A DNA stretch of 64,000 nucleotides from Antedon mediterranea (Eukaryota > Echinodermata > Crinoidea > Comatulida > Antedonidae), in assembly GCF_964355755.1 (NCBI RefSeq), contig NC_092672.1, forward strand, positions 11,838,501-11,902,500. Reading direction: 5' to 3'. A program made the position numbers and the translations under genes. The notes under the pieces are model-generated. The model was not told where the DNA came from and did no database searches. It saw only the letters and a list, made by a program, of their open reading frames with translations. Position 1 is the first letter of the stretch, and every line of letters begins with the position of its first letter. Positions 35,180-64,000 of this stretch are shown piece after piece.

Positions 35180-36613
35180 ATGTTTTGCGATATTTGTACA
35201 TTAGTGTGCATCTGTACGTTCATAGATGTGACGCTTTCAGCAAGTTCAATATCAAAGAACCCGGATCATGATACAGTAACGGAAGGCGGAAAAGCTTACT
35301 TCGTTTGCGTAGTTGATAATTTATCTCAAGACGATTACGTCTCATGGATGCACAGTGACATTGAAGTCAGTAAACAAGATAGGATTGTTGAAAGTAAGCT
35401 TCAAAATAGATATTCTATACAAGTTGATAAAGACTATGGCAGTTTTAACCTTAAAATAACAGATGTGCAAAGAGAAGATGCTGGCCAGTATACTTGCACA
35501 ATTTACAATATGGAAAATAAAAAAGTTGTTGCGCAATCTCAACCAGCTAATTTAACTGTTAACCAAATTCCACAAAAATTGTATCCAATTTGCTCTCCTG
35601 TAGAACAATTCTACGTACCAGGAGGCATGGTAACACTAGCTTGTTCTTCGGAAATAACACAACCACCATCTGTTTTAAATTGGATCCAAAATGGTATCAG
35701 AATATCACCTAATCTGTACAAAAATGTGTTTGATCAAAAAATAATGAAAATAGCCTATTCGTTCAAAGCTGAGCGAATTTCAAATCGTGGAATGTTTACA
35801 TGTGAACTTACTTCCACAATTGATCCTACCTTTAGGAATAACTGCAGTATCGGGCCATTAAATATTCGCTACGTTCCTCAAGTCCGTATCGAGCACACAG
35901 GTGTTCTTAAAATTGGCCGCGAAGCAATATATATTTGCTACAGTGAAGCCAATCCTGATAAAGTGACATATATATGGAAAACTGAACCTCAATTAAGAAG
36001 AGACCAATATGAAATAGAAAATGACATAATATTTAGAATTTTATTGTTAACGGTAGATCTTAATGGTACACAGTTATTTTGTGAAGTGAATAATGAAGTA
36101 GGAATTGGAAGTAAAAGTTACAATATCATCTTTTCAAATGAACAATCAACTAAGGTTGGTAATTTAGAAAGTGACATTAACAAGGACATTCATAATAAAA
36201 ACGATGATAAAGTTGGAGAAAATGAAAAAATGCATAAGACGCAGAATGTTGAAGAGATAGAAATGGAAAATAGTTTTGATCTATCACTTATTGTTGTAAT
36301 AGCTGTTGTATGTATATTTGTTATTATTGGCCTAGCTATGATACCTGTTGGTTACATGAGATATACACAAAGACAACCCAGTGACACCATCGGTAGAGGA
36401 AGACCTGTGTCAATACCTGATGTATACTTTGAACCTAGAGATCACATAGATCCTATGCTACCACAGTTAGGCTTATCAGCTCCATGGATGAGGACAGTAG
36501 GAGTTCAAGTTCCTGGTGAATGTGAATATGATGTAACGTATAATACACAAGTTATGCCACAGTTACGACAGGTTTACTACTCACAAAGGGTGTACCCACC
36601 ATCCTCTCTGTAA
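35180..36613 (+). CDS. Array gene 1: three-Ig receptor, divergent ectodomain
   Basis: A 477-residue single-exon protein. The signal peptide spans about 1-21. Ig1 has Cys43 and Cys106, Trp56 and an RYSI..FNLKI strand pair. Ig2 has four Cys (about 138, 155, 208, 222), the last in an NCS sequon. Ig3 has Cys253 and Cys301. An acidic, Lys-rich stalk (about 320-366) is followed by a membrane helix at about 368-393 and a tail ending PSSL. The ectodomain differs strongly from every other array gene, yet its last 265 bases differ from those of gene 2 at only about ten positions. This contrast points to gene conversion of the 3' end. It sits at the left edge of the array, 193 bases before gene 2. Receptor or adhesion function is inferred from architecture only. 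Confidence 0.93.
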   Translation: MFCDICTLVCICTFIDVTLSASSISKNPDHDTVTEGGKAYFVCVVDNLSQDDYVSWMHSDIEVSKQDRIVESKLQNRYSIQVDKDYGSFNLKITDVQREDAGQYTCTIYNMENKKVVAQSQPANLTVNQIPQKLYPICSPVEQFYVPGGMVTLACSSEITQPPSVLNWIQNGIRISPNLYKNVFDQKIMKIAYSFKAERISNRGMFTCELTSTIDPTFRNNCSIGPLNIRYVPQVRIEHTGVLKIGREAIYICYSEANPDKVTYIWKTEPQLRRDQYEIENDIIFRILLLTVDLNGTQLFCEVNNEVGIGSKSYNIIFSNEQSTKVGNLESDINKDIHNKNDDKVGENEKMHKTQNVEEIEMENSFDLSLIVVIAVVCIFVIIGLAMIPVGYMRYTQRQPSDTIGRGRPVSIPDVYFEPRDHIDPMLPQLGLSAPWMRTVGVQVPGECEYDVTYNTQVMPQLRQVYYSQRVYPPSSL

Positions 36614-36805
36614 TGCTTTTTTCATTTTTTTTAAACCAGTAACATAATTTAATATTTGAAATGGCACATACGAATAATACTTTAAATACACCAATCATAC
36701 TAAATCTACAGAAAATGTAGTATAATGAATTTGATTCGGATTCATTCTGGAAAATATATATTATTGTGAATCAAGATTTTACACAAGAGAAAAGCTGTAT
36801 TTGAG
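36614..36805 (+). promoter_or_regulatory. Gap 1-2 of the gene 2-5 type
   Basis: This 192-bp gap, like those at 38297-38485, 39977-40166 and 41658-41847, holds AACA(C/T)AATTTAATATTTG, AATGGCACATA, TTTAAATACACCAATCA and CTAAATCT.CAGAAA in order, then a short uORF, then GAGAAAAGCTGT..TTGAG directly before the ATG. No AATAAA is present. The shared blocks must include both the 3' end of one gene and the promoter of the next, unless genes are co-transcribed. Confidence 0.6.
36725..36769 (+). promoter_or_regulatory. Conserved 14-codon uORF before array gene 2
   Basis: Encodes MNLIRIHSGKYILL. Homologous 13-codon uORFs precede gene 3 (38408-38449), gene 4 (40089-40130) and gene 5 (41770-41811), reading MKLF.IH.GKYTL. 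All stop 36-37 bases before the main ATG. Conservation may simply reflect recent duplication. Confidence 0.45.
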
Positions 36806-38296
36806 ATGATATTACATCCAACATTTTTGTTTATTGCATTTTTACTGCTCAACAAAACGTTTTCCTTTCCTGAATTTATAAAACAGCCAGAGGATGAAAG
36901 CCGAGCCGAAGGAGAACTTACGTATTTTAATTGTATGGTGAAAAATCTTGATGAAGGTGAATATGTTTCATGGCTTCATAATGGTCGGAAAATAAGTAGA
37001 AAAGATATAATTTCTGATACAAGTATATTTGATCGTTATTCAATAGAGTTTGATGACGTATTTAGCACTTATAATTTGCGAATTAAGAATATACAGAGGC
37101 GAGATGTAGGAATATACGCATGCGCAGTTTATGATGATTCTGACAATGTGGTTGCAGAGACTAAATCTTCTAACTTCACAGTACTTCAAATTCCTGAGAA
37201 ATATTACCCATTGTGCTCTAATATAAAAACAAGTTATAAACTTAACCAAAACATTGTTGTTGTATGTTCATCAGAAAAGACCTATCCTCTGCCTAGTTTA
37301 ATTTGGAAGCGAGACGGTATCAATATTGTATCACAATTGGAGGAGAAAACATCACGAGATATATACAAAGTTTCCTATTCAGTTAATGCAAAACAATCCG
37401 ACAACAGAGCTATATTTATATGTGAATTAACAACATCAGCAAACCCATCTATAAGAAGGAATTGTTCTGTTGGACCTATCAACGTTTTATATCCTCCGGT
37501 TGTTAGTATTAAACAGACAAGTGATATCGTTCTTGGCGACGAAGCCATCTTTATTTGTTATAGCGATGCAAATCCACAAGAGAATATTTTTCAATGGAGT
37601 TTTGACCCACCTATCAACAAAAACATGTATTTCTTAGAAAATGAATTCATTCTAAGAATTACAAATGTAGTAATCAGTTTAAATGATACAATTGTTACCT
37701 GCGAAGTAGAAAATTCTGTTGGAAGGAGCTATAGCAAATTAAACATCAATATAAAAAGAAAAACCTCATTTGATAGTAGCGTTAATGATAACGAGGGAAA
37801 TGGAAAAGGCGGATCAAAGAAAAATACAAATGGGTTTAAAACAGAAGGTACAGAGGACGACGGTGCGACGATAGGAAACAAAGAAAAATCAAAGAATCAA
37901 AATAGTAATCAAAATACAATACAGACAAGATCCCAAGACAAGAAAAACAGCACCGATGTATCAATATCATTAGTTATAACCATTGCAGTTGTATGTATTA
38001 TAGTAATTCTAGGATTGGCATTGATACCTGTTGGTTACATGAGATATACACGAAGACAACCTAGTGACACCATCAGTAGAGGAAGACCTGTGTCAATACC
38101 TGATGTATACTTTGAACCTAGAGATCACATAGATCCTATGCTACCACAGTTAGGCTTAGCAGCTCCTTGGATGAGGACAGTAGGAGTTCAAGTTCCTGGT
38201 GAATGTGAATATGATGTAACGTATAATACACAAGTTATGCCACAGTTACGACAGGTTTACTACTCACAAAGAATGTACCCGCCATCATCTTTGTAA
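36806..38296 (+). CDS. Array gene 2: three-Ig receptor (block 2-5)
   Basis: 496 residues, single exon; serves as reference for genes 2-5. Signal peptide about 1-20 (ends TFSF). Ig1 about 22-127: Cys43, Trp56, YNLRI, RRDVGIYAC with Cys106. Ig2 about 135-228: four Cys at 137, 154, 206, 220, the last in NCS. Ig3 about 230-316: Cys251 and Cys299. The stalk, about 317-386, is rich in N, K, S, G, with a KNQNSNQNT run. A membrane helix at about 387-409 (VVCIIVILGLALIPVG) precedes the tail 412-496. The tail carries RGRPVSIP (fits the RxRxxS and RxxSxP patterns), VYFEP (YxxP), YNTQ and YYSQ (YxxQ), and a PSSL C-terminus (class I PDZ-like). ATG 36806 gives the signal peptide directly. Gene 2 is much closer to gene 4 than to its neighbour gene 3. 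Confidence 0.95.
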   Translation: MILHPTFLFIAFLLLNKTFSFPEFIKQPEDESRAEGELTYFNCMVKNLDEGEYVSWLHNGRKISRKDIISDTSIFDRYSIEFDDVFSTYNLRIKNIQRRDVGIYACAVYDDSDNVVAETKSSNFTVLQIPEKYYPLCSNIKTSYKLNQNIVVVCSSEKTYPLPSLIWKRDGINIVSQLEEKTSRDIYKVSYSVNAKQSDNRAIFICELTTSANPSIRRNCSVGPINVLYPPVVSIKQTSDIVLGDEAIFICYSDANPQENIFQWSFDPPINKNMYFLENEFILRITNVVISLNDTIVTCEVENSVGRSYSKLNINIKRKTSFDSSVNDNEGNGKGGSKKNTNGFKTEGTEDDGATIGNKEKSKNQNSNQNTIQTRSQDKKNSTDVSISLVITIAVVCIIVILGLALIPVGYMRYTRRQPSDTISRGRPVSIPDVYFEPRDHIDPMLPQLGLAAPWMRTVGVQVPGECEYDVTYNTQVMPQLRQVYYSQRMYPPSSL

Positions 38297-38407
38297 TGAT
38301 TTTTCCAATTTTCTAAAACCAGTAACACAATTTAATATTTGAAATGGCACATATGAATAATAGTTTAAATACACCAATCAAACTAAATCTACAGAAACGG
38401 TAACACA

Positions 38408-38449
38408 ATGAAATTGTTTTGGATTCATTTTGGAAAATATACGTTGTGA
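38408..38449 (+). promoter_or_regulatory. Conserved 13-codon uORF before array gene 3
   Basis: Reads MKLFWIHFGKYTL. Belongs to the uORF set of genes 2-5; ends 36 bases before the main ATG. Confidence 0.4.
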
Positions 38450-38485
38450 ATCAAGATAATACACACGAGAAAAGCTGTATTTGAG

Positions 38486-39976
38486 ATGATATTATATCCA
38501 ACGTTTTGGTTTATTGCATTGTTACTGCTCAACAAAACGTTTTCGTTTCCTGAATTTATAAAACAGCCAGAGGATGAAAGCCGAGCCGAAGGAAAATTTA
38601 CGTTTTTTATTTGTATGGTGACAAATCTTGGGGAAGGTGAATATGTTTCATGGCTGCATAGTGGTCGGAAAATAAGTAGAAATGATATAATTACTGATAC
38701 TAGGGTATTTGATCGTTATTCAGTAGATTTTGATCCAGTATTTAGTACTTACAATTTGCGAATTAAGAATATACAGAGGCAAGATGTAGGAATATACACA
38801 TGCGCAGTTTATGATGATTCTGGCGACATAGTGGCACAGAGTAAAGCTTCTAACTTTACAGTTCTTCAAATTCCTGAGAAATTTTACCCATTATGCTCTA
38901 ATATAAAAACAAGTTATACACTTAACAAAAAAATTGTTGTTGTATGTTCATCAGAAAAGACCTATCCTCTGCCTAGTTTAATTTGGAAGCGTGACGATAT
39001 CAATATTGTATCACCATTGGAGAAAGAATCATCACGAGATACATACAAAGTGTCCTATTCAGTTATTGCAAAACAATCCGACAACAGAGCTATATTTATA
39101 TGTGAATTAACAACATCAGCAAACCCATCTATAGGAAGGAATTGTTCTGTTGGACCTATCAACGTTTTATATCCTCCTGTTGTTCGTATTAAACAGACAA
39201 GTGATATCGTTCTTGGCGACGAAGCCATCTTTATTTGTTATAGCGATGCAAATCCACAAGAGAATATTTTTAGATGGAGATTTGACCCACCTATCAACAA
39301 AAACATGTATTTCTTAGAAAATGAATTCATTCTGAGAATTAGAAATGTAGTACTCAGTTTAAATGATACAATTGTTATCTGCGAAGTAAAAAATTCTGTT
39401 GGAAGTAGCTATAGCAAATTAAACATCAATATAAAAAGAAAAACCTTATTTGATAGTAGCGTTAATGAAAACGAGGGAAATGGAAAAGGTGGATCAAAGA
39501 AAAATACAAATGGGTTTAAAACAGAAGGTACAGAGGACGACGGTGCGACGATAGGAAACAAAGAAAAATCAAAGAATCAAAATAGTAATCAAGATACAAT
39601 ACACACAAGATCCCAAGACAAGGAAAACAGCACCGATGTATCAATATCATTAGTTATAACCATTGCAGTGGTATGTATTATAGTAATTCTAGGTTTGGCA
39701 CTGATACCTGTTGGTTACATGAGATATACACGAAGACAACCTAGTGACACCATCAATAGAGGAAGACCTGTGTCAATACCTGATGTATACTTTGAACCTA
39801 GAGATCACATAGATCCTATGCTACCACAGTTAGGCTTAGCAGCTCCATGGATGAGGACAGTAGGAGTTCAAGTTCCTGGTGAATGTGAATATGATGTAAC
39901 GTATAATACACAAGTTATGCCACAGTTACGACAAGTTTACTACTCACAAAGAATGTACCCACCATCATCTCTATAA
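38486..39976 (+). CDS. Array gene 3: three-Ig receptor (block 2-5)
   Basis: 496 residues with all domain boundaries as in gene 2. It shares with gene 5, against genes 2 and 4, the MILYPTFW signal start, FDPVFSTYNL in Ig1, VVRIKQ and IRNVVLSL in Ig3, QDT in the stalk and the same 5' flank. Own differences include EKFYPLC at the start of Ig2, KRDDINIVSPLEKE, RWRFDPP in Ig3 and INRGRPVS in the tail. Ig1 residues about 63-84 (after RKIS) differ from each neighbour. The gene ends in TAATGA, so a second stop codon backs up the first. Confidence 0.95.
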   Translation: MILYPTFWFIALLLLNKTFSFPEFIKQPEDESRAEGKFTFFICMVTNLGEGEYVSWLHSGRKISRNDIITDTRVFDRYSVDFDPVFSTYNLRIKNIQRQDVGIYTCAVYDDSGDIVAQSKASNFTVLQIPEKFYPLCSNIKTSYTLNKKIVVVCSSEKTYPLPSLIWKRDDINIVSPLEKESSRDTYKVSYSVIAKQSDNRAIFICELTTSANPSIGRNCSVGPINVLYPPVVRIKQTSDIVLGDEAIFICYSDANPQENIFRWRFDPPINKNMYFLENEFILRIRNVVLSLNDTIVICEVKNSVGSSYSKLNINIKRKTLFDSSVNENEGNGKGGSKKNTNGFKTEGTEDDGATIGNKEKSKNQNSNQDTIHTRSQDKENSTDVSISLVITIAVVCIIVILGLALIPVGYMRYTRRQPSDTINRGRPVSIPDVYFEPRDHIDPMLPQLGLAAPWMRTVGVQVPGECEYDVTYNTQVMPQLRQVYYSQRMYPPSSL

Positions 39977-40130: not shown

Positions 40131-40166
40131 ATCAAGATATTACACAAAAGAAAAGCTGTATTTGAG

Positions 40167-41657
40167 ATGATATTACATCCAACATTTTTGTTTATTGCAT
40201 TGTTACTGCTCAACAAAACGTTTTCGTTTCCTGAATTTATAAAACAGCCAGAGGATGAAAGCCGAGCCGAAGGAGAACTTACGTTTTTTAATTGTATGGT
40301 GAAAAATCTTGGTGATGGTGAATATGTTTCATGGATGCAAAATGGTCGTAAAATAAGTAGTAATGATTTAATTGTTGATGTAAGTGTATTTGAGCGATAT
40401 TCAATAGAATTTAATGACGTGTTTAGTATTTACAATTTGCGAATTCAGAATATACAGAGGCGAGATGTAGGAATATACACATGCGCAGTTTATGATGATT
40501 CTGGCGACATAGTGGCACAGAGTAAAGCTTCTAATTTCACAGTACTTGAAATTCCTGAGAAATATTACCCATTATGCTCTAATATAAAAACAAGTTATAA
40601 ACTTAACCAAAACATTGTTGTTGTATGTTCATCAGAAAAAACCTATCCTCTGCCTAGTTTAATTTGGAAGCGAGACGATATCAATATTGTATCACAATTG
40701 GAGGAGGAAACATCACGAGATATATACAAAGTTTCCTATTCAGTTATTGCAAAACAATCCGACAACAGAGCTATATTTATATGTGAATTAACAACATCAG
40801 CAAACCCATCTATAAGAAGGAATTGTTCTGTTGGACCTATCAACGTTTTATATCCTCCTGTTGTTAGTATAAAACAGACAAGTGATATCGTTCTTGGCGA
40901 CGAAGCCATCTTTATTTGTTATAGCGATGCAAATCCACAAGCGAATATTTTTAAATGGAGTTTTGACCCACCTATCAACAAAAACATGTATTTCTTAGAA
41001 AATGAATTCATTCTAAGAATTACAAATGTAGTAATCAGTTTAAATGATACAATTGTTACCTGCGAAGTAGAAAATTCTGTTGGAAGGAGCTATAGTAAAT
41101 TAAACATCAATATAAAAAGAAAAACCTCATTTGATAGTAGCGTTAATGATAACGAGGGAAATGGAAAAGGCGGATCAAAGAAAAATACAAATGGGTTTAA
41201 AACAGAAGGTAAAGAGGACGACGGTGCGACGATAGGAAACAAAGAAAAATCAAAGAATCAAAATAGTAATCAAAATACAATACAGACAAGATCCCAAGAC
41301 AAGAAAAACAGCACCGATGTATCAATATCATTAGTTATAACCATTGCAGTTGTATGTATTATAGTAATTCTAGGGTTGGCATTGCTACCTGTTGGTTACA
41401 TGAGATATACACGTAGACAACCCAGCGACACTATCAGTAGAGGAAGACCTGTGTCAATACCTGATGTATACTTTGAACCTAGAGATCACATAGATCCTAT
41501 GCTACCACAGTTAGGCTTAGCAGTTCCATGGATGAGGACAGTAGGAGTTCAAGTTCCTGGTGAATGTGAATATGATGTAACATATAATACACACGTTATG
41601 CCACAGTTACGACAAGTTTACTACTCACAAAGAATGTACCCACCATCTTCTTTGTAA
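40167..41657 (+). CDS. Array gene 4: three-Ig receptor (block 2-5)
   Basis: 496 residues. From Ig2 onward it is nearly the same as gene 2, with a handful of changes (KRDD, EEETS, QANIF, FKTEGKE). In Ig1, by contrast, about ten of 33 codons after RKIS change amino acid and only about five change silently. The result is SSNDLIVDVSVFER in place of the gene 2 residues. This concentration of replacement changes in the outermost domain is the pattern expected of a diversifying binding face. Tail oddities are LAVPWM and YNTHV, the latter losing one YxxQ glutamine context only downstream. It starts exactly 3361 bases after gene 2. Confidence 0.95.
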   Translation: MILHPTFLFIALLLLNKTFSFPEFIKQPEDESRAEGELTFFNCMVKNLGDGEYVSWMQNGRKISSNDLIVDVSVFERYSIEFNDVFSIYNLRIQNIQRRDVGIYTCAVYDDSGDIVAQSKASNFTVLEIPEKYYPLCSNIKTSYKLNQNIVVVCSSEKTYPLPSLIWKRDDINIVSQLEEETSRDIYKVSYSVIAKQSDNRAIFICELTTSANPSIRRNCSVGPINVLYPPVVSIKQTSDIVLGDEAIFICYSDANPQANIFKWSFDPPINKNMYFLENEFILRITNVVISLNDTIVTCEVENSVGRSYSKLNINIKRKTSFDSSVNDNEGNGKGGSKKNTNGFKTEGKEDDGATIGNKEKSKNQNSNQNTIQTRSQDKKNSTDVSISLVITIAVVCIIVILGLALLPVGYMRYTRRQPSDTISRGRPVSIPDVYFEPRDHIDPMLPQLGLAVPWMRTVGVQVPGECEYDVTYNTHVMPQLRQVYYSQRMYPPSSL

Positions 41658-41847: not shown

Positions 41848-43338
41848 ATGATATTATATCCAACGTTTTGGTTTATTGCATTGTTACTGCTCAACAACAC
41901 GTTTTCATTTCCTGAATTTATAAAACAGCCAGAGGATGAAAGCCGAGCCGAAGGAAAATTTACGTATTTTAATTGTATGGTGACAAATCTTGGTGAAGAT
42001 GAATATGTTTCATGGCTGCATAGTGGTCGGAAAATAAGTACAAATCATTTAATTACTGATACAAGTTTAATAGATCGTTATTCAATATACTTTGATCCAG
42101 TATTTAGCACTTACAATTTGCAAATTAAAAATATACAGAGGCAAGATGTAGGAATATACGCATGCGCAGTTTATGATGATTCTGGCGACATAGTGGCAAA
42201 GAGTAAAGCTTCTAACTTTACAGTACTTGAAATTCCTGAGAAATATTACCCATTATGCTCAAATATAAAAACAAGTTATAAACTTAACCAAAATATTGTT
42301 GTTGTATGTTCATCAGAAAAGACCTATCCTCTGCCTAGTTTAATTTGGAAGCGTGACGATATCAATATTGTATCACCATTGGAAGAAGAAATATCAAAAA
42401 ATACATACAAAGTGTCTTATTCAGTTATTGCAAAAAAATCCGACAACGGAGCTATATTTATATGTGAATTAACAACATCAGCAAACCCATCTATAAGAAG
42501 GAATTGTTCTGTTGGACCTATCAACGTTTTATATCCTCCTGTTGTTCGTATTAAACAGACAAGTGATATTGTTCTTGGCGACGAAGCCATCTTTATTTGT
42601 TATAGCGATGCAAATCCACAAGAGAATATTTTTAAATGGAGTTTTGAACCACCTATCAACAAAAAGATGTATTTCTTAGAAAATAAATTCATTCTGAGAA
42701 TTAGAAATGTAGTACTCAGTTTAAATGATACAATTGTTACCTGCGAAGTAAATAATTCTGTTGGAAGTAGCTATAGTAAATTAAACATCAATATAATCAG
42801 AAAAACCTCATTTGATAGTAACGTTAATACCAACAAGGGAAATGGAAAAGGCGGATCAAACAAAGATACAAATGGGTTTAAAACAGAAGGTACAAAGGAC
42901 GATGGTGCGATGATAGGAAATAAAGAAAAATCAAAGAATCAAAATAGTAATCAAGATACAACACAGACACGATCCCAAGACAAGGAAAACAGCACCGATG
43001 TATCAATATCATTAGTTATAACCATTGCAGTGGTATGTATTATAGTAATTCTAGGGTTGGCATTGATACCTGTTGGTTACATGAGATACACACGAAGACA
43101 ATCTAGTGACACCATCAGTAGAGGAAGACCTGTGTCAATACCTGATGTATACTTTGAACCTAGAGATCATATAGATCCTATGCTACCACAGTTAGGCTTA
43201 GCAGCTCCATGGATGAGGACAGTAGGAGTTCAAGTTCCTGGTGAATGTGAATATGATGTAACATATAATACACAAGTGATGCCACAATCACGACATGTTT
43301 ACTATTCACAGCGTATGTATCCAACAGTGTCACTCTAA
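41848..43338 (+). CDS. Array gene 5: three-Ig receptor (block 2-5), altered C-terminus
   Basis: 496 residues, sister of gene 3 (start-to-start distance 3362). Ig1 variable segment reads STNHLITDTSLIDR. The stalk has several own changes (SNVNTNKGNGKG, NKDTNGFK, TKDDGAM). The tail is standard up to TYNTQVMPQ and then departs: SRHVYYSQRMYPTVSL. The C-terminus VSL no longer fits a class I PDZ ligand and is closer to class II. The 3' flank also leaves the block 2-5 type here. The last 60 bases and the following gap therefore mark the right edge of the duplicated block. Confidence 0.95.
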   Translation: MILYPTFWFIALLLLNNTFSFPEFIKQPEDESRAEGKFTYFNCMVTNLGEDEYVSWLHSGRKISTNHLITDTSLIDRYSIYFDPVFSTYNLQIKNIQRQDVGIYACAVYDDSGDIVAKSKASNFTVLEIPEKYYPLCSNIKTSYKLNQNIVVVCSSEKTYPLPSLIWKRDDINIVSPLEEEISKNTYKVSYSVIAKKSDNGAIFICELTTSANPSIRRNCSVGPINVLYPPVVRIKQTSDIVLGDEAIFICYSDANPQENIFKWSFEPPINKKMYFLENKFILRIRNVVLSLNDTIVTCEVNNSVGSSYSKLNINIIRKTSFDSNVNTNKGNGKGGSNKDTNGFKTEGTKDDGAMIGNKEKSKNQNSNQDTTQTRSQDKENSTDVSISLVITIAVVCIIVILGLALIPVGYMRYTRRQSSDTISRGRPVSIPDVYFEPRDHIDPMLPQLGLAAPWMRTVGVQVPGECEYDVTYNTQVMPQSRHVYYSQRMYPTVSL

Positions 43339-43568: not shown

Positions 43569-45020
43569 ATGAAGTTTCGAAGCTACATGTTGATTGTTAT
43601 TCCATTTTTGTACGAAGCATCTTCATTCACTGGATTCTTAAAACAGCCGTCAGACGAGAGCGTAGCTGAAGGTGAGCTGACATTTTTTAGTTGTATTGTA
43701 CAGAATCTTGATGGTGGTGAATACGTTTCCTGGTTGTATAATGCTCAGAAGATAAGCAAAAATGATATAATAACTAATAAAATGCTTACTACTCGCTACT
43801 CAATAGACTTTGATCCTGTATTTAAAAAATACAATTTGCAAATATATGACATCCATCGAAGCGATGAAGGACAATACACTTGTGCTGTTTATGATAAAAA
43901 TGAGATTATAGTAAAACAATCAAAAACAGCAAACTTTACCGTACTGCAAACTCCAGGACTAAATTATCCAATATGTACACTGAAAAAACAAACTTACATT
44001 GTTGGAGAAGCTGTTGTACTTGTCTGTATATCAGAAGTAACAAAGCCGTCAGCAACGTTATCATGGGTGAAATATGGTGACATTATTAAGGAAAAGGTTG
44101 TCAATGAAATGGTGAACGGAAATCATCAAACATCTTTTTCATTTACTGCAAGAAAGTCTGATAATAGAGCAATATTTATATGTGAATTGACAACACCAGC
44201 TAACCCATCGATTAGGCGAAATTGTTCAAGTGGGCCCTTCAACATTGTATACCCTCCTATAGTTCATATTCAACAAACAAGTGACGTCATTTTGGGCAAT
44301 GAAGGCATCTTTATTTGTTACAGTGATGCGAATCCACAGGAAACTACATTTGAATGGAGCTTTGATCCACCCATTGAAGAAAATATGTATTTGTTGGAAA
44401 GTGAAAGAATTTTAAGGATTGAAAATACAATAAGTAGTTTAAATGGGACAAGTGTCATATGTAAAGTTACTAATTCCATTGGAAGTGGATCTAGTAAATT
44501 AATATTGAAAATTAGAACGGAAGAAACTATTAATAATGTAGTTGAAACAAACAATGGAAAAGAAACCGACACGTCCGAAAAACCTCATGAAAGAAATAAG
44601 TCTAAGTCGAAGAATCAAAATTTAAACAACAATCAGCAGTTATTGCAGACTAACTCGCCAAACAACAACAGTACTGATGATATTTCAATTTCGTTGGTTG
44701 TCATAATTGCATTGGTATGCATTATAGTAATTCTAGGTTTGGCTATGATACCTGTTGGTTACATGAAATATACACGAAGACAACCCAGTGACACCATCAG
44801 TAGAGGAAGGCCTGTGTCATTACCTGATGTATATTTTGAACCTAGAGATCACATAGATCCTATGCTACCACAGTTAGGCTTAGCAGCTCCTTGGATGAAG
44901 ACAGTAGGAGTTCAAGTTCCTGGTGAATGTGAATATGATGTAACGTATAATACACAAGTTATGCCACAATTACGACAGGTGTACTATACACAACGGATGT
45001 ATCCTGCAGCTCCACTCTGA
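43569..45020 (+). CDS. Array gene 6: three-Ig receptor, transitional type
   Basis: 483 residues. The Ig1 is closest to genes 2-5 (KQPSDES.AEGELTFF, FDPVF), but the stalk (NNVVETNNGKET, EKP.ERNKSKSKNQN, QQLLQTNSPNNN) and Ig3 (QQTSDVILGNE, PQETTFEWSFDPPI) belong with genes 8-14. It is therefore a hybrid between the two blocks. Ig2 is individual (LKKQTYIVGEAVVLVCISE, WVKYGDIIKEK). Tail differences are GRPVSLPD and WMKTVGV. The C-terminus AAPL does not match a PDZ class I ligand. The start ATG at 43569 leads straight into the signal peptide (MKFRSYMLIVIPFLYEASS). Confidence 0.94.
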   Translation: MKFRSYMLIVIPFLYEASSFTGFLKQPSDESVAEGELTFFSCIVQNLDGGEYVSWLYNAQKISKNDIITNKMLTTRYSIDFDPVFKKYNLQIYDIHRSDEGQYTCAVYDKNEIIVKQSKTANFTVLQTPGLNYPICTLKKQTYIVGEAVVLVCISEVTKPSATLSWVKYGDIIKEKVVNEMVNGNHQTSFSFTARKSDNRAIFICELTTPANPSIRRNCSSGPFNIVYPPIVHIQQTSDVILGNEGIFICYSDANPQETTFEWSFDPPIEENMYLLESERILRIENTISSLNGTSVICKVTNSIGSGSSKLILKIRTEETINNVVETNNGKETDTSEKPHERNKSKSKNQNLNNNQQLLQTNSPNNNSTDDISISLVVIIALVCIIVILGLAMIPVGYMKYTRRQPSDTISRGRPVSLPDVYFEPRDHIDPMLPQLGLAAPWMKTVGVQVPGECEYDVTYNTQVMPQLRQVYYTQRMYPAAPL

Positions 45021-48708: not shown

Positions 48709-48721
48709 ATGTACACATTAG
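48701..48721 (+). promoter_or_regulatory. Start-overlapping uORF of genes 9-18
   Basis: An ATG lies exactly eight bases before the main ATG (ATGACATCATG or ATGACATTATG). It opens a frame that ends just inside the main ORF, so the uORF overlaps the main start. Copies: gene 9 48701-48721, gene 10 50378-50398, gene 11 52060-52080, gene 12 53743-53757, gene 13 55419-55433, gene 14 57095-57115, gene 15 58753-58773, gene 16 60396-60446 (stop lost, extended), gene 17 62057-62077, gene 18 63718-63738. Each upstream ATG has a purine at -3. Confidence 0.65.
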
Positions 48722-55426: not shown

Positions 55427-56890
55427 ATGCTAGGTATTGGAACAACTGTTGGTACTTGGGTATTTTTTTACATGTTTATGTTGCAGAGAACTTATTCCTT
55501 CTCAGGATTCATAAAAGAGCCATTAGATGAGAATCAAGCCGAAGGTGATTTAACATATTTTACTTGTATTGTACGAGAACTTGATGAAACTCAATATATT
55601 TCTTGGTTACATAATGGACGCAAGATAAGTCAAAATGGCGAAATTATTATAAATACATACGCACATTATTCAATTGATTATAATTCAGTATTTGGTACAT
55701 GCACCTTAAGAATTCAAAACGTACAGCGGAGAGATAAAGGAGGATATACATGTACCGTTTATGATAGCAACGATCAAATTGTTGAGAAATCAAGGACAGC
55801 TAATTTTACAGTTTCAGAAATTCCTCAACAACAATATCCGATTTGTTCTTCAACTAAAAGGAGTTATCGCGTTGGCCAACACGTTGTTCTTAACTGTATT
55901 TCGGAAAAGACCACACCCCCAGCCTTGTTAAGATGGGTACATAATATTGGAGGTAGTGAATCAGGATTAAAAGAATCGTTAACTGGTAATTACGAAAACT
56001 CTTATTCATTTATTGCAAAACAATCTGACAATAGAGCAATATTTACATGTGAATTAACAACACCAGCAAATCCGTCATTATATAGTAATTGTACAATTGG
56101 TCCTCTTGATGTTTTATATGCTCCTACTGTTCGAATTGAACAAACACGTGACGTCATTCTTGGTAATGAAGCCATCTTTATTTGTTATAGTGATGCAAAT
56201 CCACAGGAATCTTCGTTTAAATGGAGCTTTGTTCCACCTCTTACTGAAAACATGTTTGTGTTGGAAAATGACATAATTTTGAGAATTAAAAATACAGTAA
56301 GTAGTTTAAATGGGACAAGTGTCATATGTGCAGTTACTAATTCGATTGGAAGTGGATCTAGTAAATTGATAATAAACGTAAAATCGAAAGAATCTACTAA
56401 TAATGTAGTTGAAACAAACAATGGAAAAGAAACGAAAAAGTTTGAAAAACCAAATGAAAGAAACAAAAATAAATCGAAAAATCAAAACTCTAACAGCAAT
56501 CAACCACTATTGCAGACTCGAACGCCAAACAACAACAACAGCAGTAATGATATTTCAATTTCTCTTGTTGTGATAATTGCATTGGTGTGTATCATAGTAA
56601 TTCTAGGATTGGCTATGATACCTGTTGGTTACATGAGATATACTCGTAGACAACCCAGTGACACCATCAGTAGAGGAAGACCTGTGTCAATACCTGATGT
56701 ATACTTTGAACCTAGAGATCACATAGATCCTATGCTACCACAGTTAGGCTTAGCAGCGCCATGGATGAGGACAGTAGGAGTTCAAGTTCCTGGTGAATGT
56801 GAATATGATGCCACATATAATACACAAGTTATGCCACAGGCACGACATGTATACTATACACAACGGATGTACCCGGCGTCTTCGTTGTAA
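55427..56890 (+). CDS. Array gene 13: three-Ig receptor, extra Ig1 Cys
   Basis: 487 residues. Shares signal start MLGIGTTVGTW and 5' flank with gene 12, but the stalk (KSKESTNNVVETNNGKET, QPLLQTRTPNNNNSSND) with gene 10, start-to-start 5041 bases away. Ig1 has FGTCTLRIQNV with extra Cys. Ig2 ends SLYSNCTIGP. Ig3 is individual: PQESSFKWSFVPPLTENM, replacing TTFEWSFDPPISENM. Tail ends with PQARHVYYTQ. Standard ASSL C-terminus and TAATGA tandem stop. Confidence 0.95.
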   Translation: MLGIGTTVGTWVFFYMFMLQRTYSFSGFIKEPLDENQAEGDLTYFTCIVRELDETQYISWLHNGRKISQNGEIIINTYAHYSIDYNSVFGTCTLRIQNVQRRDKGGYTCTVYDSNDQIVEKSRTANFTVSEIPQQQYPICSSTKRSYRVGQHVVLNCISEKTTPPALLRWVHNIGGSESGLKESLTGNYENSYSFIAKQSDNRAIFTCELTTPANPSLYSNCTIGPLDVLYAPTVRIEQTRDVILGNEAIFICYSDANPQESSFKWSFVPPLTENMFVLENDIILRIKNTVSSLNGTSVICAVTNSIGSGSSKLIINVKSKESTNNVVETNNGKETKKFEKPNERNKNKSKNQNSNSNQPLLQTRTPNNNNSSNDISISLVVIIALVCIIVILGLAMIPVGYMRYTRRQPSDTISRGRPVSIPDVYFEPRDHIDPMLPQLGLAAPWMRTVGVQVPGECEYDATYNTQVMPQARHVYYTQRMYPASSL

Positions 56891-57102
56891 TGATTGCTGT
56901 TTCAGAACAACTAACACAACTTTTTAAATGATTTGCCATGTTGCAATACCATTGTAAATAGATCATAAATATTCATGTTATAATTATACATACAGAATAT
57001 GTAATGTATATCGCGACCAATACACACTATGCTGGTATATCTGACTTGTTTTCTGAAGTATGTTGTAACATTTGGATAATAATTATACTTCGAAATGACA
57101 TC

Positions 57103-58572
57103 ATGTACACCTTAGGTATTGGAAACACTTTTGGCACTTGGATATTTTTATATATGTTGATGTTGCAGAGAACTTATTCCTTCTCAGGATTCATAAAAGA
57201 GCCACTAGATGAGAATAAAGCTGAGGGTGATTTGACATATTTTACTTGTATTGTACGAGAAATTGATGAAACTCAATATGTTTCTTGGTTACACAATGGA
57301 CGCAAGATAAGTAAAAATGGCGAAATTATCATCAATACATACGCACATTATTCAATTGATTATGATTCAACATTTTTTGTTAAATGTAACTTACAAATTC
57401 AAAATATAAAACGAAGCGATAAAGGGGAATATGTATGTACAGTTTACGATAGCAACGATCGGATTGTGGACAAATCAAGGACAGCTAATTTTACAGTTTT
57501 AGAAATTCCTCAACAACAATATCCGATTTGTTCTTCGACTAAAACGAGTTATCATGTTGGCCAGAATGTTGTTCTTAACTGTATTTCGGAAAACACCAAT
57601 CCTCTACCTATTCTTACATGGACACAAAATATTGTTGGAGGCATTGAATTAGGATTAAAAGAATCGTTAACTGGTAATTATGAAAAGTCTTATTCATTTA
57701 TTGCAAAACAATCTGACAACAGAGCAATATTTACATGTGAATTAACAACATCAGCAAATCCGTCTATAGAAAGGAATTGTACAATTGGTCCTCTTGATGT
57801 TTTATATCCCCCTATTGTTCGTATCCAACAAACACGTGATGTCATTATTGGTAATGAAGCCATCTTTATTTGTTATAGTGATGCAAATCCTCAAGAAACT
57901 ACGTTTGAATGGAACTTTGATCCACCTATTAGTGAAAATATGTTTGTGTTGGAAAATGATATAATTTTGAGAATTAAAAATACTGTAAGTAGTTTAAATG
58001 GGACAAGTGTCATATGTAAAGTTACTAATTCCATTGGAAGTGGATCTAGTAAATTGATAGTGAACGTAAAATCTAAAGAATCTATTAATAATGTAGTTGA
58101 AACGAACAATGGAAAAGAAACGAACAAGCCTGAAAAACCAAATCAAGGAAACAAAAATAAATCGAACAATCAAAATTCTAACAGCAATCAACAACTATTG
58201 AAGACTAGATCGCCAAACAACAGCAGTACAGATATTTCAATTTCGTTGGTTGTGATAATTGCATTAGTGTGTATCATAGTAATTCTAGGATTGGCTATGA
58301 TACCTGTTGGTTACATGAAATATACACGTAGACAACCCAGTGACACCATCAGTAGAGGAAGACCTGTGTCAATACCTGATGTATACTTTGAACCTAGAGA
58401 TCACATAGATCCTATGCTACCACAGTTAGGCTTAGCAGCTCCATGGATGAGGACAGTAGGAGTTCAAGTTCCTGGTGAATGTGAATATGATGTCACATAT
58501 AATACACAAGTTATGCCACAGTTACGACAGGTATACTATACACAACGGATGTACCCAGCTTCTTCGTTGTAA
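57103..58572 (+). CDS. Array gene 14: three-Ig receptor, extra Ig1 Cys, odd Ig2
   Basis: 489 residues from ATG 57103. The frame is open to an ATG at 57004, but those 33 codons are flank sequence homologous to the non-coding gaps of other genes, so the shorter start is preferred; it gives the common signal peptide. Ig1 has a two-codon insertion and extra Cys (STFFVKCNLQIQNIKRSD), closest to gene 10. Ig2 has a segment found in no other member (ENTNPLPILTWTQNIVGG and IELGLKES). 5' flank (ACTTCGAAATGACATCATG) is shared with gene 11 only. Tail standard, with YDVTYNTQVMPQLRQ as in genes 1-4. Ends ASSL. Confidence 0.94.
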   Translation: MYTLGIGNTFGTWIFLYMLMLQRTYSFSGFIKEPLDENKAEGDLTYFTCIVREIDETQYVSWLHNGRKISKNGEIIINTYAHYSIDYDSTFFVKCNLQIQNIKRSDKGEYVCTVYDSNDRIVDKSRTANFTVLEIPQQQYPICSSTKTSYHVGQNVVLNCISENTNPLPILTWTQNIVGGIELGLKESLTGNYEKSYSFIAKQSDNRAIFTCELTTSANPSIERNCTIGPLDVLYPPIVRIQQTRDVIIGNEAIFICYSDANPQETTFEWNFDPPISENMFVLENDIILRIKNTVSSLNGTSVICKVTNSIGSGSSKLIVNVKSKESINNVVETNNGKETNKPEKPNQGNKNKSNNQNSNSNQQLLKTRSPNNSSTDISISLVVIIALVCIIVILGLAMIPVGYMKYTRRQPSDTISRGRPVSIPDVYFEPRDHIDPMLPQLGLAAPWMRTVGVQVPGECEYDVTYNTQVMPQLRQVYYTQRMYPASSL

Positions 58573-58760: not shown

Positions 58761-60215
58761 ATGTACGTTTTAGGAATTGGAAAGTCTTTTGGAATATGGG
58801 TAGTTTTGTATTTATTGATGTTTCAGAGAACACATTCTTTATCTGGATTCAATACAGAGCCTGGGGATGAAAATCAGGCAGAAGGTGATTTAACCTATTT
58901 TACTTGTATTGTACGAGGACTCGATGACACTCACTATGTTTCTTGGTTGCATAATGGACGCAAGATTAGTAAAAATTATGACATTATATCAGATATCAAT
59001 AGATATTCAATCGAGTTTGATTCAAATTCTAGAAAATACAACTTTGAAATTGAGAATACTCAAAGGCAAGATAAAGGAGAATACGTATGCGCTGTTTATG
59101 ATAGCAGTGACAGAATTGTGGTCAAATCTAGAACAGCTAATTTAACAGTTTCAGAAATTCCACAAGAACCTTACCCTATTTGTCATAACGCTAAGCTAAG
59201 CTATTCCGCTGGACAAAGTGTGCTTCTTTCATGTATATCTGAAAAGACATCTCCTCTTGCTCATTTAAAATGGAAACAAAATAATTTGGATGTTACGACA
59301 GGATTAAGTGAAGACACATCTAGTGGTAATTATAAAGTATCGTATTCATTTACTGCAAGAAAATCCCATAATAGAGCAATATTTATATGTGAATTAACAA
59401 CATCCGTTAACCCAACTATTAGAAGGAATTGTTCTATTGGACCTATCAACGTTTTATATGCCCCTGTTGTTCGAATTGAGCAAACAAGTGACGTCATACT
59501 TGGTACTGAAGCCATCTTCATTTGTTATAGTGATGCAAATCCACAAGAAACTACATATCAATGGAGTTTTGATCCACCTATAGACGAAACTATGTATTAT
59601 TTAGAAAATGAATTTATTTTGAGAATTAAAAAAACAGTAAATAGTTTAAATGGCATACAAGTTATCTGCAAAGTAACGAATTCTATTGGAAGTGAGTCAG
59701 ACAAATTAATAATCAAAATAAAGACGAGAGGAGACATAACAAATAATGAAGATGAAGAATATGACAAAACGGTTGATGAAAATAAAGATATATCTGATAA
59801 CAATAAGGTAAATAAAAATCAACAATTGTTGCAAACAAGATCACCAACTATAAATAACAGTCATAGTAATTCAGATATTTCAATATCTCAAGTTGTCATC
59901 ATTGCAGTGGTATGTATTATATTAATTCTAGGTTTGGCAATGATACCTGTTGGTTACATTAAATATACACGACGACAACCCAGTGACACCATCAGTAGAG
60001 GAAGACCTGTGTCAATACCTGATGTATACTTTGAACCTAGAGATCACATAGATCCTATGCTACCGCAGTTAGGCTTAGCAGCTCCATGGATGAGGACAGT
60101 AGGAGTTCAAGTTCCTGGTGAATGTGAATATGATGCCACATATAATACACAAGTGATGCCACAATCACGACAGGTGTACTATACACAACGGATGTACCCG
60201 GCATCTTCGTTGTAA
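58761..60215 (+). CDS. Array gene 15: three-Ig receptor (block 15-18)
   Basis: 484 residues; reference for genes 15-18. Signal MYVLGIGKSFGIWVVLYLLM and following. Ig1: GFNTEPGDENQAEGDL, DTHYVSWLHNGRKISKNYD, RYSIEFDSNSRKYNFEIENTQRQDKGEYVC. Ig2: PICHNAKLSYSAGQSVLLSC, HLKWKQNNLDV, EDTSSGNYKVSYSF, RRNCSIGP. The stalk is acidic rather than N/K-rich (DITNNEDEEYDKTVDENKDI). The membrane helix begins ISISQVVIIAVVCIILILG, and the juxtamembrane reads GYIKYTRR, both shared with gene 17 but not 16. Tail standard, ends ASSL. Confidence 0.95.
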   Translation: MYVLGIGKSFGIWVVLYLLMFQRTHSLSGFNTEPGDENQAEGDLTYFTCIVRGLDDTHYVSWLHNGRKISKNYDIISDINRYSIEFDSNSRKYNFEIENTQRQDKGEYVCAVYDSSDRIVVKSRTANLTVSEIPQEPYPICHNAKLSYSAGQSVLLSCISEKTSPLAHLKWKQNNLDVTTGLSEDTSSGNYKVSYSFTARKSHNRAIFICELTTSVNPTIRRNCSIGPINVLYAPVVRIEQTSDVILGTEAIFICYSDANPQETTYQWSFDPPIDETMYYLENEFILRIKKTVNSLNGIQVICKVTNSIGSESDKLIIKIKTRGDITNNEDEEYDKTVDENKDISDNNKVNKNQQLLQTRSPTINNSHSNSDISISQVVIIAVVCIILILGLAMIPVGYIKYTRRQPSDTISRGRPVSIPDVYFEPRDHIDPMLPQLGLAAPWMRTVGVQVPGECEYDATYNTQVMPQSRQVYYTQRMYPASSL

Positions 60216-60403
60216 TGATTGCTGTTTTAGAACTGATAACACAACATTTAAACTGATTTGCCATACATTTTTAATATAATTAATATTCATATTTTGTTTG
60301 TGCATATACAATACTGATTGCAAAATATACACTTCCTATTGCAGACTTTTGTTTAACCAATATTTTGTAAGGTTTCCGTAACATACTTTTAAACAATGAC
60401 ATT

Positions 60404-61858
60404 ATGTACGTTTTGGGAATTGGAAAGTCTTTTGGAACATGGATAGTCTTGTATTTATTGATGTTTCAGGAAACACATACTTTATCTGGATTTAATACAG
60501 AGCCCGGGGATGTAAATCAAGCAGAAGGTGATTTGACCTATTTCAACTGTATCGTGCGAGGACTTGATGACACTCACTATGTTTCTTGGTTGCATAATGG
60601 ACGCAAGATTAGTAAAAATTATGACATTATATCAGATAACAATCGATATGCAATCGAGTTTGATTCTAATTCTAGAAAATACAACTTTGAAATTGAGAAT
60701 ACTCAAAGAAAAGATAAAGGAGAATACGTATGCGCTGTTTATGATAGCAGTGACAACATTGTGGTCAAATCTAGAACAGCTAATTTAACAGTTTTAGAAA
60801 TTCCTCAAGAAAATTATCCTATTTGTCATAACGCTAAGCAAAGCTATTCCGCTGGACAAAGTGTGCTTCTTTCATGTATATCTGAAAAGACATCTCCTCT
60901 TGCTCATTTAAAATGGAAACACAATAGTATTGATGTTACGACAGGATTAAGTGAAGACACATCTAGTGGTAATTACAAAGTATCGTATTCATTTATTGCA
61001 AGACAATCCAATAATAGAGCAGTATTTATATGTGAATTAACAACATCCGTTAACCCAACTATAAGAAGGAATTGTTCTATTGGACCTATCAATGTTTTAT
61101 ATGCTCCTGTTGTTCGTATTGAACAAACGAGTGACGTCATACTTGGTAATGAAGCCATCTTTATTTGCTATAGTGATGCAAATCCACAAGAAGCTACGTA
61201 TCAATGGAGTTTTGATCCACCTATAGACGAAACTATGTATTATTTAGAAAATGAATTTATTATGAGAATTAAAAAAACAACAAATAGTTTAAATGGTATA
61301 CAAGTTATCTGCAAAGTAACGAATTCTATTGGAAGTGAGTCAAACAAATTAATAATCAAAGTAAAGACGAGAGGAGTCATAGCAGACAATGAAGATGTAG
61401 ATTATGACAAAGCAATCGATGAAAATAAAGATATATCTGATAGCAAAAAGGTAAATAAAAATCAACAAATGTTGCAAACAAAATCACCAACTATAAACAA
61501 CAGTAATACGGATTCAGATATTTCAATATCTCTAGTTGTCATAATTGCATTAGTATGTATTATAGTAATTCTAGGGTTGGCATTGATACCTGTTGGTTAC
61601 ATGAGATATACACGGAGACAACCTAATGACACCATAAGTAGAGGAAGACCTGTGTCAATACCTGATGTATACTTTGAACCTAGAGATCACATAGATCCTA
61701 TGTTACCACAGTTAGGCTTAGCAGCTCCATGGATGAGGACAGTAGGAGTTCAAGTTCCTGGTGAATGTGAATATGATGCCACATATAATACACAAGTTAT
61801 GCCACAGCCACGACATGTATACTATACACAACGGATGTACCCAGCTTCATCGTTGTAA
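60404..61858 (+). CDS. Array gene 16: three-Ig receptor (block 15-18)
   Basis: 484 residues. The ectodomain is of the gene 15 type, with DVNQAEG, NRYAIEFD, QRKDKGEYVC and ENYPICHNAKQSY differences. The membrane region (ISISLVVIIALVCIIVILG, GYMRYTRRQPNDTIS) is of the type seen in genes 8-14, not that of 15 and 17. It has therefore received or kept a different 3' half. The start-overlapping uORF has lost its usual TAG (TTTTGG) and runs for 16 codons to 60446, which would change any translational control relative to its neighbours. Ends PRHVYYTQRMYPASSL. Confidence 0.95.
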   Translation: MYVLGIGKSFGTWIVLYLLMFQETHTLSGFNTEPGDVNQAEGDLTYFNCIVRGLDDTHYVSWLHNGRKISKNYDIISDNNRYAIEFDSNSRKYNFEIENTQRKDKGEYVCAVYDSSDNIVVKSRTANLTVLEIPQENYPICHNAKQSYSAGQSVLLSCISEKTSPLAHLKWKHNSIDVTTGLSEDTSSGNYKVSYSFIARQSNNRAVFICELTTSVNPTIRRNCSIGPINVLYAPVVRIEQTSDVILGNEAIFICYSDANPQEATYQWSFDPPIDETMYYLENEFIMRIKKTTNSLNGIQVICKVTNSIGSESNKLIIKVKTRGVIADNEDVDYDKAIDENKDISDSKKVNKNQQMLQTKSPTINNSNTDSDISISLVVIIALVCIIVILGLALIPVGYMRYTRRQPNDTISRGRPVSIPDVYFEPRDHIDPMLPQLGLAAPWMRTVGVQVPGECEYDATYNTQVMPQPRHVYYTQRMYPASSL

Positions 61859-62064
61859 TGATTGCTGTTGTAGAACTAATAACACAACATTTAAACTGAT
61901 TTGCCATACCTTTTTAATACAATCATTAATATTCATATTATGTTTATGCATATGCAAAACTTATCAGGTATACTGTATTGCGAACTATACACTGTATGTT
62001 GCTCGACTTCTGTTTTACGAATATGGCGTAAGGTTTCCATAATTCACTTTTAAACAATGACATT

Positions 62065-63522
62065 ATGTACGTTTTAGGCATTGGAAAGTCTTTTGGAACA
62101 TGGGTAGTTTTGTATTTTCTGATGTTTCAAAGAACATATTCTTTATCTGGATTCATTAAAGAGCCTGCGGATGAAAATCAAGCAGAAGGTGATTTAACCT
62201 ATTTTACTTGCATTGTACGTGGACTCGATGAAACTCAATATGTTTCTTGGTTGCATAATGGACGCAAGATTAGTAACAACTATGACATTTTATCAGATAC
62301 TAATCGATATTCAATCGATATTGATTCAAATTCTAGAAAATATAACTTTGAAATTGAGAATACACAAAGGCAAGATAAAGGAGAATACGTATGCGCTGTT
62401 TATGATAGCAGGGACAGCATTGTGGTCAAATCTAGAACAGCTAATTTAACAGTTTTAGAAATTCCTCAAGAACCTTACCCTCTTTGTCATAACGCTAAGC
62501 TAAGCTATTCCGCTGGACAAAGTGTGCTTCTTTCATGTATATCTGAAAAGACATCTCCTCTTGCCCATTTAAAATGGAAACAAAATGATATTGATGTTAC
62601 CACAGGATTAAGTGAAGACACATCTAGTGGTAATTACAAAGTATCGTATTCATTTATTGCAAGACAATCTAATAATAGAGCAGTATTTATATGTGAATTA
62701 ACAACATCCGTAAACCCAACTATAAGAAGGAATTGTTCTATTGGACCTATCAATGTTTTATATGTTCCTGTTGTTCGTATTGAACAAACGAGTGACGTCA
62801 TACTTGGTACTGAAGCCATCTTCATTTGCTATAGTGATGCAAATCCACAAGAAGCTACGTATCAATGGAGTTTTGATCCACCTATAGACGAAACTATGTA
62901 TTATTTAGAAAATGAGTTTATTTTGAGAATTAAAAGAACAGTAAATAGTTTAAATGGTATACATGTTATCTGCAAAGTAACGAATTCTATTGGAAGTGAG
63001 TCGAACAAATTAATAATCAAAGTAAAAACGAGAGGAGACATAGCAGACAATGAAGATGTAGATTATGACAAAACGGTTGATGAAAATAAAGATATATCTG
63101 ATAACAAAAAGGTAAACAAAAATCAACAATTGCTGCAAACACGATCACCAACTATAAATAACAGTCATAATAATTCAGATATTTCAATATCTCAAGTTGT
63201 CATCATTGCAGTGGTATGTATTATAGTAATTCTAGGATTGGCATTGATACCTGTTGGTTACATTAAATACACACGACGACAACCCAGTGACACCATCAGT
63301 AGAGGAAGACCTGTGTCAATACCTGATGTATACTTTGAACCTAGAGATCATATAGATCCTATGTTACCACAGATAGGCTTAGCAGCTCCATGGATGAGGA
63401 CAGTAGGAGTTCAAGTTCCTGGTGAATGTGAATATGATGCCACATATAATACACAAGTTATGCCACAGCCACGACAGGTATACTATACACAACGGATGTA
63501 CCCAGCTTCTTCGTTGCAATGA
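62065..63522 (+). CDS. Array gene 17: three-Ig receptor, masked C-terminus
   Basis: 485 residues. Ig1 starts GFIKEPADENQAEGDL, which is the gene 8-14 style IKEP in place of NTEP, and has DETQYVSW and RYSIDIDSNSRKYNFEI. Ig2 and the membrane region follow gene 15 (SQVVIIAVV, GYIKYTRR). In the tail, PQIGLAAPW replaces PQLGLAAPW. As in gene 9, TAA has become CAA and the backup TGA is used, so the protein ends ASSLQ. This happened independently or was passed by conversion. Confidence 0.95.
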   Translation: MYVLGIGKSFGTWVVLYFLMFQRTYSLSGFIKEPADENQAEGDLTYFTCIVRGLDETQYVSWLHNGRKISNNYDILSDTNRYSIDIDSNSRKYNFEIENTQRQDKGEYVCAVYDSRDSIVVKSRTANLTVLEIPQEPYPLCHNAKLSYSAGQSVLLSCISEKTSPLAHLKWKQNDIDVTTGLSEDTSSGNYKVSYSFIARQSNNRAVFICELTTSVNPTIRRNCSIGPINVLYVPVVRIEQTSDVILGTEAIFICYSDANPQEATYQWSFDPPIDETMYYLENEFILRIKRTVNSLNGIHVICKVTNSIGSESNKLIIKVKTRGDIADNEDVDYDKTVDENKDISDNKKVNKNQQLLQTRSPTINNSHNNSDISISQVVIIAVVCIIVILGLALIPVGYIKYTRRQPSDTISRGRPVSIPDVYFEPRDHIDPMLPQIGLAAPWMRTVGVQVPGECEYDATYNTQVMPQPRQVYYTQRMYPASSLQ

Positions 63523-63725
63523 TTGCTGTTTCAGAACTAATAACACAACATTTAAACTGATTTGCCATACCTTCTTAATACAATCATTAATATTCATAGT
63601 ATGTTTATGCATATGCAAAACTTATCAGGTATACTGTATTGCGAACTATACACTGTATGTTGCTCGACTTCTGTTTTACGAATATGGCGTAAGGTTTCCA
63701 TAATATACTTTTAAACAATGACATT

Positions 63726-64000
63726 ATGTACGTTTTAGGCATTGGAATGCCTTTTGGAACATGGGTAGTTTTGTATTTGTTGATGTTTCAGAGAATATGT
63801 TCCTTATCCGGATTCATTAAGGAGCCTGCGGATGAAAATCAAGCAGAAGGTGATTTGACATATTTCAACTGTATTGTAAGAGGACTCGATGAAACTCACT
63901 ATGTTTCTTGGTTGCATAATGGACGCAAGATTAGTAAAAATTATGACATTATATCAGATAACAATCGATATTCAATCGAGTTTGATTCTAATTCTAGAAA
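63726..64000 (+). CDS. Array gene 18: three-Ig receptor, cut by window edge
   Basis: ATG 63726 opens 91 complete codons up to the right edge. They cover the signal peptide (MYVLGIGMPFGTWVVLYLLM and following) and the first half of Ig1 (ADENQAEGDLTYFNC, DETHYVSWLHNGRKISKNYD, RYSIEFDSNSR). It is of the gene 15-17 type, and the 5' flank is almost the same as that of gene 17. Membrane segment and tail are outside the window. The array therefore continues to the right. Confidence 0.93.
   Translation, partial: MYVLGIGMPFGTWVVLYLLMFQRICSLSGFIKEPADENQAEGDLTYFNCIVRGLDETHYVSWLHNGRKISKNYDIISDNNRYSIEFDSNSR

Follow-up and report, generated by a model that had tools for sequence, protein, structure and literature searches.

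The window analysed here, 64,000 nucleotides at C3:11838501-11902500, carries one of five tandem arrays of a crinoid gene family; the family consists of roughly 100 single-exon genes for type I membrane receptors. Each array protein has a signal peptide, three immunoglobulin (Ig) domains, a low-complexity stalk, one transmembrane (TM) helix and a tail. Arrays expand through local duplication; either Ig3-TM-tail or just the tail is held alike by gene conversion, while the signal peptide, Ig1 and often Ig2 diverge. The family is probably a germline repertoire for recognition or adhesion, in which receptors differ in their outer domains and signal through one common tail.

An array of eighteen receptor genes

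Seventeen complete open reading frames (ORFs), each running from ATG to stop, lie head to tail on the plus strand between 35180 and 63522. An eighteenth, R18 (63726..64000, +), is cut by the window edge; in the genome it is intact, encodes 484 amino acids and ends at window-equivalent position 65180 (C3:11903680). An earlier note on this DNA reported seventeen complete ORFs and one edge-cut ORF on the same strand, exactly as found here, and put the array at "at least 18" genes. The figure of 18 stands but its open end does not: no further family member is present in the approximately 3.7 kb beyond R18, and downstream on C3 no tail copy occurs before a single member at 12.63 Mb. The array therefore has exactly 18 genes in 30 kb. 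The ORFs are not exons of one large spliced gene, an alternative raised in the same note, since every one of them has a start and a stop of its own and encodes a whole receptor.

Successive starts are 1.63-1.78 kb apart and intergenic gaps measure 183-332 bp, in agreement with the values first noted, provided that R14 starts at 57103. The conserved start of R14 (MYTLGIG) is at this position; an in-frame ATG further upstream, at 57004, was chosen by the ORF finder and is probably not used.

All array genes are on the plus strand. R01 (35180..36613) is the most divergent, with 58-60% nucleotide identity to the rest, while its tail is 96% identical to that of R02. R05 (41848..43338) has an ectodomain near those of R02-R04 and a tail far less near. 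R14 occupies 57103..58572. The remaining genes were read as ORFs: R02 (36806..38296), R03 (38486..39976), R04 (40167..41657), R06 (43569..45020), R07 (45263..46714), R08 (47047..48525; used for the structure model), R09 (48709..50175), R10 (50386..51858), R11 (52068..53537), R12 (53751..55208), R13 (55427..56890), R15 (58761..60215), R16 (60404..61858) and R17 (62065..63522). These data come from a single assembly, and an assembler may miscount near-identical copies. Collapse of the array is disfavoured by the presence of 18 distinct sequences, with R01-R17 sharing 58-96% nucleotide identity.

A family of five arrays and dispersed genes

A genome search with a 59-residue tail consensus, in which all copies were scored, yields 94 tail copies; 93 are on C3 and one is on C10. 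Frames of 427-536 amino acids enclose 92 of them; of the other two, the one at 18.718 Mb is a fragment and the one at 18.8785 Mb belongs to a gene interrupted by one stop. Full-length searches that used three seeds recover a few further members, whose tails have diverged. These searches scored a limited number of candidates, so that the family size of about 100 genes is a lower bound. In addition to the 18 genes of the window, tandem arrays of 10, 15, 9 and 17 genes are located in C3:18.70-18.92 Mb, and about 24 family genes are dispersed. The C3:18.7-18.9 Mb region was read in four pieces; gaps in its arrays are wider than those of the window array (about 0.23-0.8 kb, with a few of 2-2.5 kb). 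All complete members read consist of one ORF from signal peptide to stop, and no intron-bearing copy with the family tail was found in the genome tail search.

In the ectodomain tree, each sampled array forms its own clade (support 0.975-1.0) and the dispersed genes fall on long branches. This is explained by an old family that has undergone independent local bursts.

Divergence gradient and gene conversion

Synonymous divergence (dS) is high in the 5' part of the genes and low in the 3' part, and this holds for all five arrays. The Ig1/tail ratios of pooled synonymous differences (pS) are 2.93, 4.05, 4.91, 6.17 and 2.71, and all bootstrap intervals lie above 1. The position of the drop varies. 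For the 18.70 Mb array it is the Ig1/Ig2 border, with a dS of 1.1-1.4 in Ig1 and 0.05-0.16 thereafter; for the arrays at 18.77 and 18.74 Mb it is Ig2/Ig3; and for the window array it is TM/tail, with values of 1.19 in the stalk, 0.33 in TM/tail and 0.07 in the tail core.

R01 and R02 differ by a dS of 2.14 over Ig1-3 versus 0.115 in the tail; for R02 and R05 the values are 0.12 over Ig1-3 versus 0.277 in the tail. Tail and ectodomain consequently have different genealogies. In the four arrays examined with a four-gamete test, compatible sites cluster to a degree that none of 500 permutations attained. The conflicting genealogies indicate that gene conversion (or unequal exchange within genes) homogenises the 3' parts. 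Selection on the protein alone was rejected as the cause of the alike tails, because synonymous sites are alike too and the genealogies conflict. The common fixed tail of the earlier note is thus indeed shared, throughout the family rather than just in the array, but plain conservation does not account for it; conversion at the DNA level maintains the likeness. The tails are also under purifying selection, with a ratio of nonsynonymous to synonymous divergence (dN/dS) of 0.07-0.20 in the arrays.

A separate observation concerns codons 427-466 of R08 (about 48325-48444) and the corresponding stretch in the neighbouring genes, where dS across all 17 genes is 0.07 versus about 1 in the ectodomain. 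This stretch may be either a conversion hot spot or a constrained DNA element, for example the promoter of the next gene.

The copy number, the tandem arrays, the divergence of the outer domains with a homogenised inner half and the tyrosine-based tail motifs would all suit a strict immune or allorecognition repertoire, in which coelomocyte receptors detect microbes or polymorphic self. Large germline families underlie echinoderm immunity (PMC13428168), and the 41-gene Alr complex of Hydractinia is organised analogously, as cited in PMC11999971. However, diversifying selection was not detected at the domain level, and crinoids are solitary animals with no obvious need for colony fusion compatibility; this reading is possible but somewhat doubtful.

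Protein fold

Single-exon genes for proteins with three Ig domains, a stalk, one membrane helix and a tail had been proposed from the sequence, and the ORFs, Pfam and a structure model agree with this layout. Six family members were scanned with Pfam, and every one has Ig domains. The domains have the canonical cysteines and tryptophans, and an additional conserved cysteine pair is present around Ig2 (C143/C225 in R08). The R08 model contains a signal helix, three beta-sandwich domains and a single TM helix at 383-410; the predicted local distance difference test (pLDDT) score is about 85-90 across most of Ig1-3.

The best VIA-align match of the R08 model is the Necl-4 ectodomain (5zo1; Z 18.2, 3.6 Å, 281 residues), followed by nectin-3 (Z 15.9), DIP-eta, Rst, NEGR1, SYG-1 and Neph1. 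The nectin and nephrin/Kirrel types, which the earlier note had named for a structure-based search, are both among these matches. Rst, SYG-1 and Neph1 score Z 15-15.8; the Kirrel-like fold is unspecific, as nectins and DIPs match equally. Since antibody antigen-binding fragments come close to these scores (Z about 14.5-15), only full three-domain matches are informative. Foldseek places nectin-3/nectin-1, SYG-2 and Rst at the top, and sequence matches in PDB include CADM4 (3e-15), Robo2 and SYG-2. According to the model, the three Ig domains are predicted to fold like those of nectins, Necl/CADM, Kirrel and DIP proteins.

Cytoplasmic tail

The tail contains the motif QP[DE]VYFEP[KR]D, then a WxRSxGxQV box and then a second tyrosine, usually within YxE[IV]. 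Both tyrosines are invariant in 31 family representatives. A C-terminal PDZ ligand binds afadin or MAGUK proteins in nectins and Necls. Here the C-termini are putative PDZ ligands, class I or II-like, in 24 of 68 members, and 32 of the 68 lack such ends; a hydrophobic PDZ-type terminus such as STHV occurs in several members.

Proposed function

Nectins, Kirrels, DIPs and related receptors bind in trans through Ig1. In a repertoire of recognition or adhesion receptors, Ig1 (with Ig2) would likewise set binding specificity, and its ligands would probably be other Ig receptors on apposed cells, as they are for nectins, Kirrels and DIPs. Many outer specificities would feed into one shared tail, whose tyrosines may be phosphorylated and bind SH2 adaptors. 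The role would be cell-cell recognition, which may concern self and non-self, coelomocyte immunity, or cell-type-specific adhesion and fusion; a function in immunity or self-recognition is conceivable. Outer drift with homogenised inner parts would be the pattern expected of a recognition repertoire.

Several findings weigh against this proposal. Ig1 has a dN/dS of 0.23-0.75, below 1 in every array, and neutral drift away from the converted core could account for its divergence. The YxE[IV] motif is present in most subfamilies, but the window-array tails lack it. An immunoreceptor tyrosine-based inhibitory motif (ITIM)-like pattern, [SIVLT]xYxx[LVI], matches 12 of 68 tails, and is listed for dispersed genes.

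Ig1 is constrained or relaxed, and is not demonstrably under positive selection. Strong positive selection on Ig1 was not found, its dN/dS being below 1.

The fold and the tail also bear on a cell-type or neuronal identity code, in which the Ig1 variant expressed would differ between cells and guide their sorting or wiring, as with DIP/Dpr and clustered protocadherins. The best structural matches include DIP, IgLON, SYG and nectin folds, and clustered protocadherins likewise combine variable outer domains with a common tail. There is, however, no shared constant exon and no sign of stochastic or cell-specific promoter choice, and such a code is unlikely.

Comparison with known systems

Nectin/Necl (CADM) and SYG/Kirrel/Rst receptors share with the family a single TM helix and, in some members, a putative PDZ-type end, and nectin and CADM proteins also share the three-Ig fold; pairwise identity to the window family is only about 20%. 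To our knowledge these receptors are few, contain introns and lack the QPDVYFEPKD / RSVGVQV tail. No match to a well-described family with a settled role, an outcome that the earlier note had considered, was obtained.

Like the window family, Hydractinia Alr consists of clustered germline immunoglobulin superfamily (IgSF) membrane receptors with variable membrane-distal domains. In contrast, Alr is cnidarian and has distinctive V/I-set domains. Within-species polymorphism is characteristic of allorecognition loci, and Alr is associated with a phenotype and with polymorphic alleles that control fusion or rejection. Its exon structure and tail presumably also differ from those of the single-exon family. 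Sea urchin SpTransformer (Sp185/333) is likewise a tandem family of an echinoderm, and duplication and recombination have shaped it; unlike the window family, it encodes effector proteins without Ig domains or a TM receptor layout. The analogy with Alr drawn in the earlier note is reasonable in form, but the host is an echinoderm and the nearest described gene is kirrelL (PMC8903837).

Echinoderm kirrelL is intronless in all echinoderms examined, including a feather star, and an origin by retrotransposition has been proposed; its product, an Ig membrane protein, is required when skeletogenic cells fuse (PMC8903837). KirrelL (Strongylocentrotus, Lytechinus, Amphiura, Anneissia) resembles the family as a single-exon gene for an Ig transmembrane protein with a Kirrel-like fold. 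It is described as one gene with a role in skeletogenic fusion, expressed in skeletogenic cells under Alx1/Ets1, whereas the window family has about 100 genes, arrays and outer divergence. Compared by description rather than by sequence, KirrelL is the closest described gene and is likely to be a relative of the family.

The family could be a crinoid-specific expansion of the intronless kirrelL lineage that serves skeletogenic or other mesenchymal cells in adhesion or fusion, and not the recognition of self or microbes. Sp-kirrelL is a single-exon Ig transmembrane gene needed in skeletogenic cell fusion (PMC8903837), and the window family is likewise intronless, echinoderm and similar to Kirrel/SYG/Rst in fold, with PDZ-type termini in several members. 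However, ninety-odd copies with diverging outer domains exceed the need of a single fusion effector; in addition, nectin-like and DIP-like folds match equally, and Ig-fold matches discriminate poorly among families. We consider this expansion a tentative possibility.

A single-exon relative at C10:1677218-1678909 encodes 563 amino acids, has a longer, different tail with the C-terminus KTEFV and is outgroup-like. It is a candidate for a conserved single-copy KirrelL-type gene.

In a literature search that had preprints and most subscription journals outside its scope, no description of the family was found; within the literature searched, the family appears to be previously undescribed. The main text of the Anneissia japonica genome paper (PMC7351957) does not mention immunoglobulin or kirrel genes.

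Intergenic gaps and the rest of the window

The gaps between array genes contain no evident TATA box or common promoter. AATAAA or ATTAAA is present in 3 of these 17 gaps of approximately 200 bp; the other 14 lack both signals for 3'-end formation. Such gaps, together with the fact that intronless genes can be retrocopies, might suggest that the array is largely silent debris of retrocopying or tandem duplication. This is very improbable: long frames are intact around 92 of the 94 tails, none of the 18 array genes is interrupted, dN/dS falls well short of 1 and the tail motifs persist in single-copy members at 25-35% identity. An operon with trans-splicing was also considered as a reading of the array, with no sign for or against it.

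Two further features of the gaps can be observed. A TAACAcAA-like motif follows soon after the stop codon in nearly all gaps (36614-63725). Most of R09-R18 have an out-of-frame ATG a few bases 5' of the conserved start (AATGACATCATG / AATGACATTATG); this may reflect translational control or chance.

The left 35 kb of the window had been described as gene-poor. A single-copy, divergent family member of 467 amino acids, missed in that description, is nevertheless located there (7414..8817, +; identified by ORF, Pfam and alignment to the array). Its protein has a signal peptide, three Ig domains, a TM helix and a tail, and is 32-33% identical to array members. The tail reads ...QPDIYFEPRD...RSVGVQVPGE...FYAEI, and the C-terminus is RRSTYI. 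The sole other coding-like stretch recognised in this part is at 29276-29746 on the minus strand, where 157 open codons resemble a fragment of a reverse transcriptase of the long interspersed nuclear element (LINE) type. A 95-bp tandem repeat (12 copies, 96% matches) occupies 1-1174 and continues to the left beyond the window. Scanning the window for Rfam families and tRNAs gave no hits.

Host genome

A degenerate vasopressin/oxytocin pattern has one match genome-wide; a reversed-pattern control has none. The matching exon encodes a signal peptide and CFWRTCPVGGKR, which is crinotocin, CFWRTCPVG. Crinotocin of this sequence has been synthesised for Antedon mediterranea; its residues 3-4, Trp-Arg, set crinoids apart from other echinoderms (PMC9793003). 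An intact Hox cluster is located at C2:7.828-8.206 Mb, with 12 homeoboxes in 380 kb and one posterior gene inverted; it includes genes of Hox4 and Hox5 character as well as posterior genes (names assigned by eye). The crinotocin match and this ambulacrarian Hox cluster together identify a crinoid genome. The Lox5 KLTGP signature is absent from the five Hox homeodomains read, which disfavours a lophotrochozoan origin. Genome searches gave no mitochondrial COX1 and no mollusc haemocyanin; the haemocyanin negative is uninformative, as no control matched either. Anneissia japonica has 10 clustered Hox genes and a GC content of 33.2% (PMC7351957); the GC content here, about 33%, matches that figure.

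Implications

The family may represent a crinoid-wide germline recognition system, concentrated on one chromosome, in which polarised conversion would preserve one signalling half as the outer domain diversifies, possibly derived from KirrelL and used in self/non-self discrimination or in the choice of fusion partners; we put this forward with considerable reserve. If the proteins are recognition receptors, a deuterostome that lacks lymphocytes would have assembled a repertoire of Ig receptors out of compactly arrayed, intron-free genes, and the two halves of each gene would evolve under opposite regimes. The compact single-exon units are easily cloned and swapped, so specificity would be directly assayable. 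If the family belongs to the KirrelL lineage, an essential cell-fusion protein would be linked to a receptor repertoire, and a common molecular origin of fusion-partner recognition and self-recognition would become testable.

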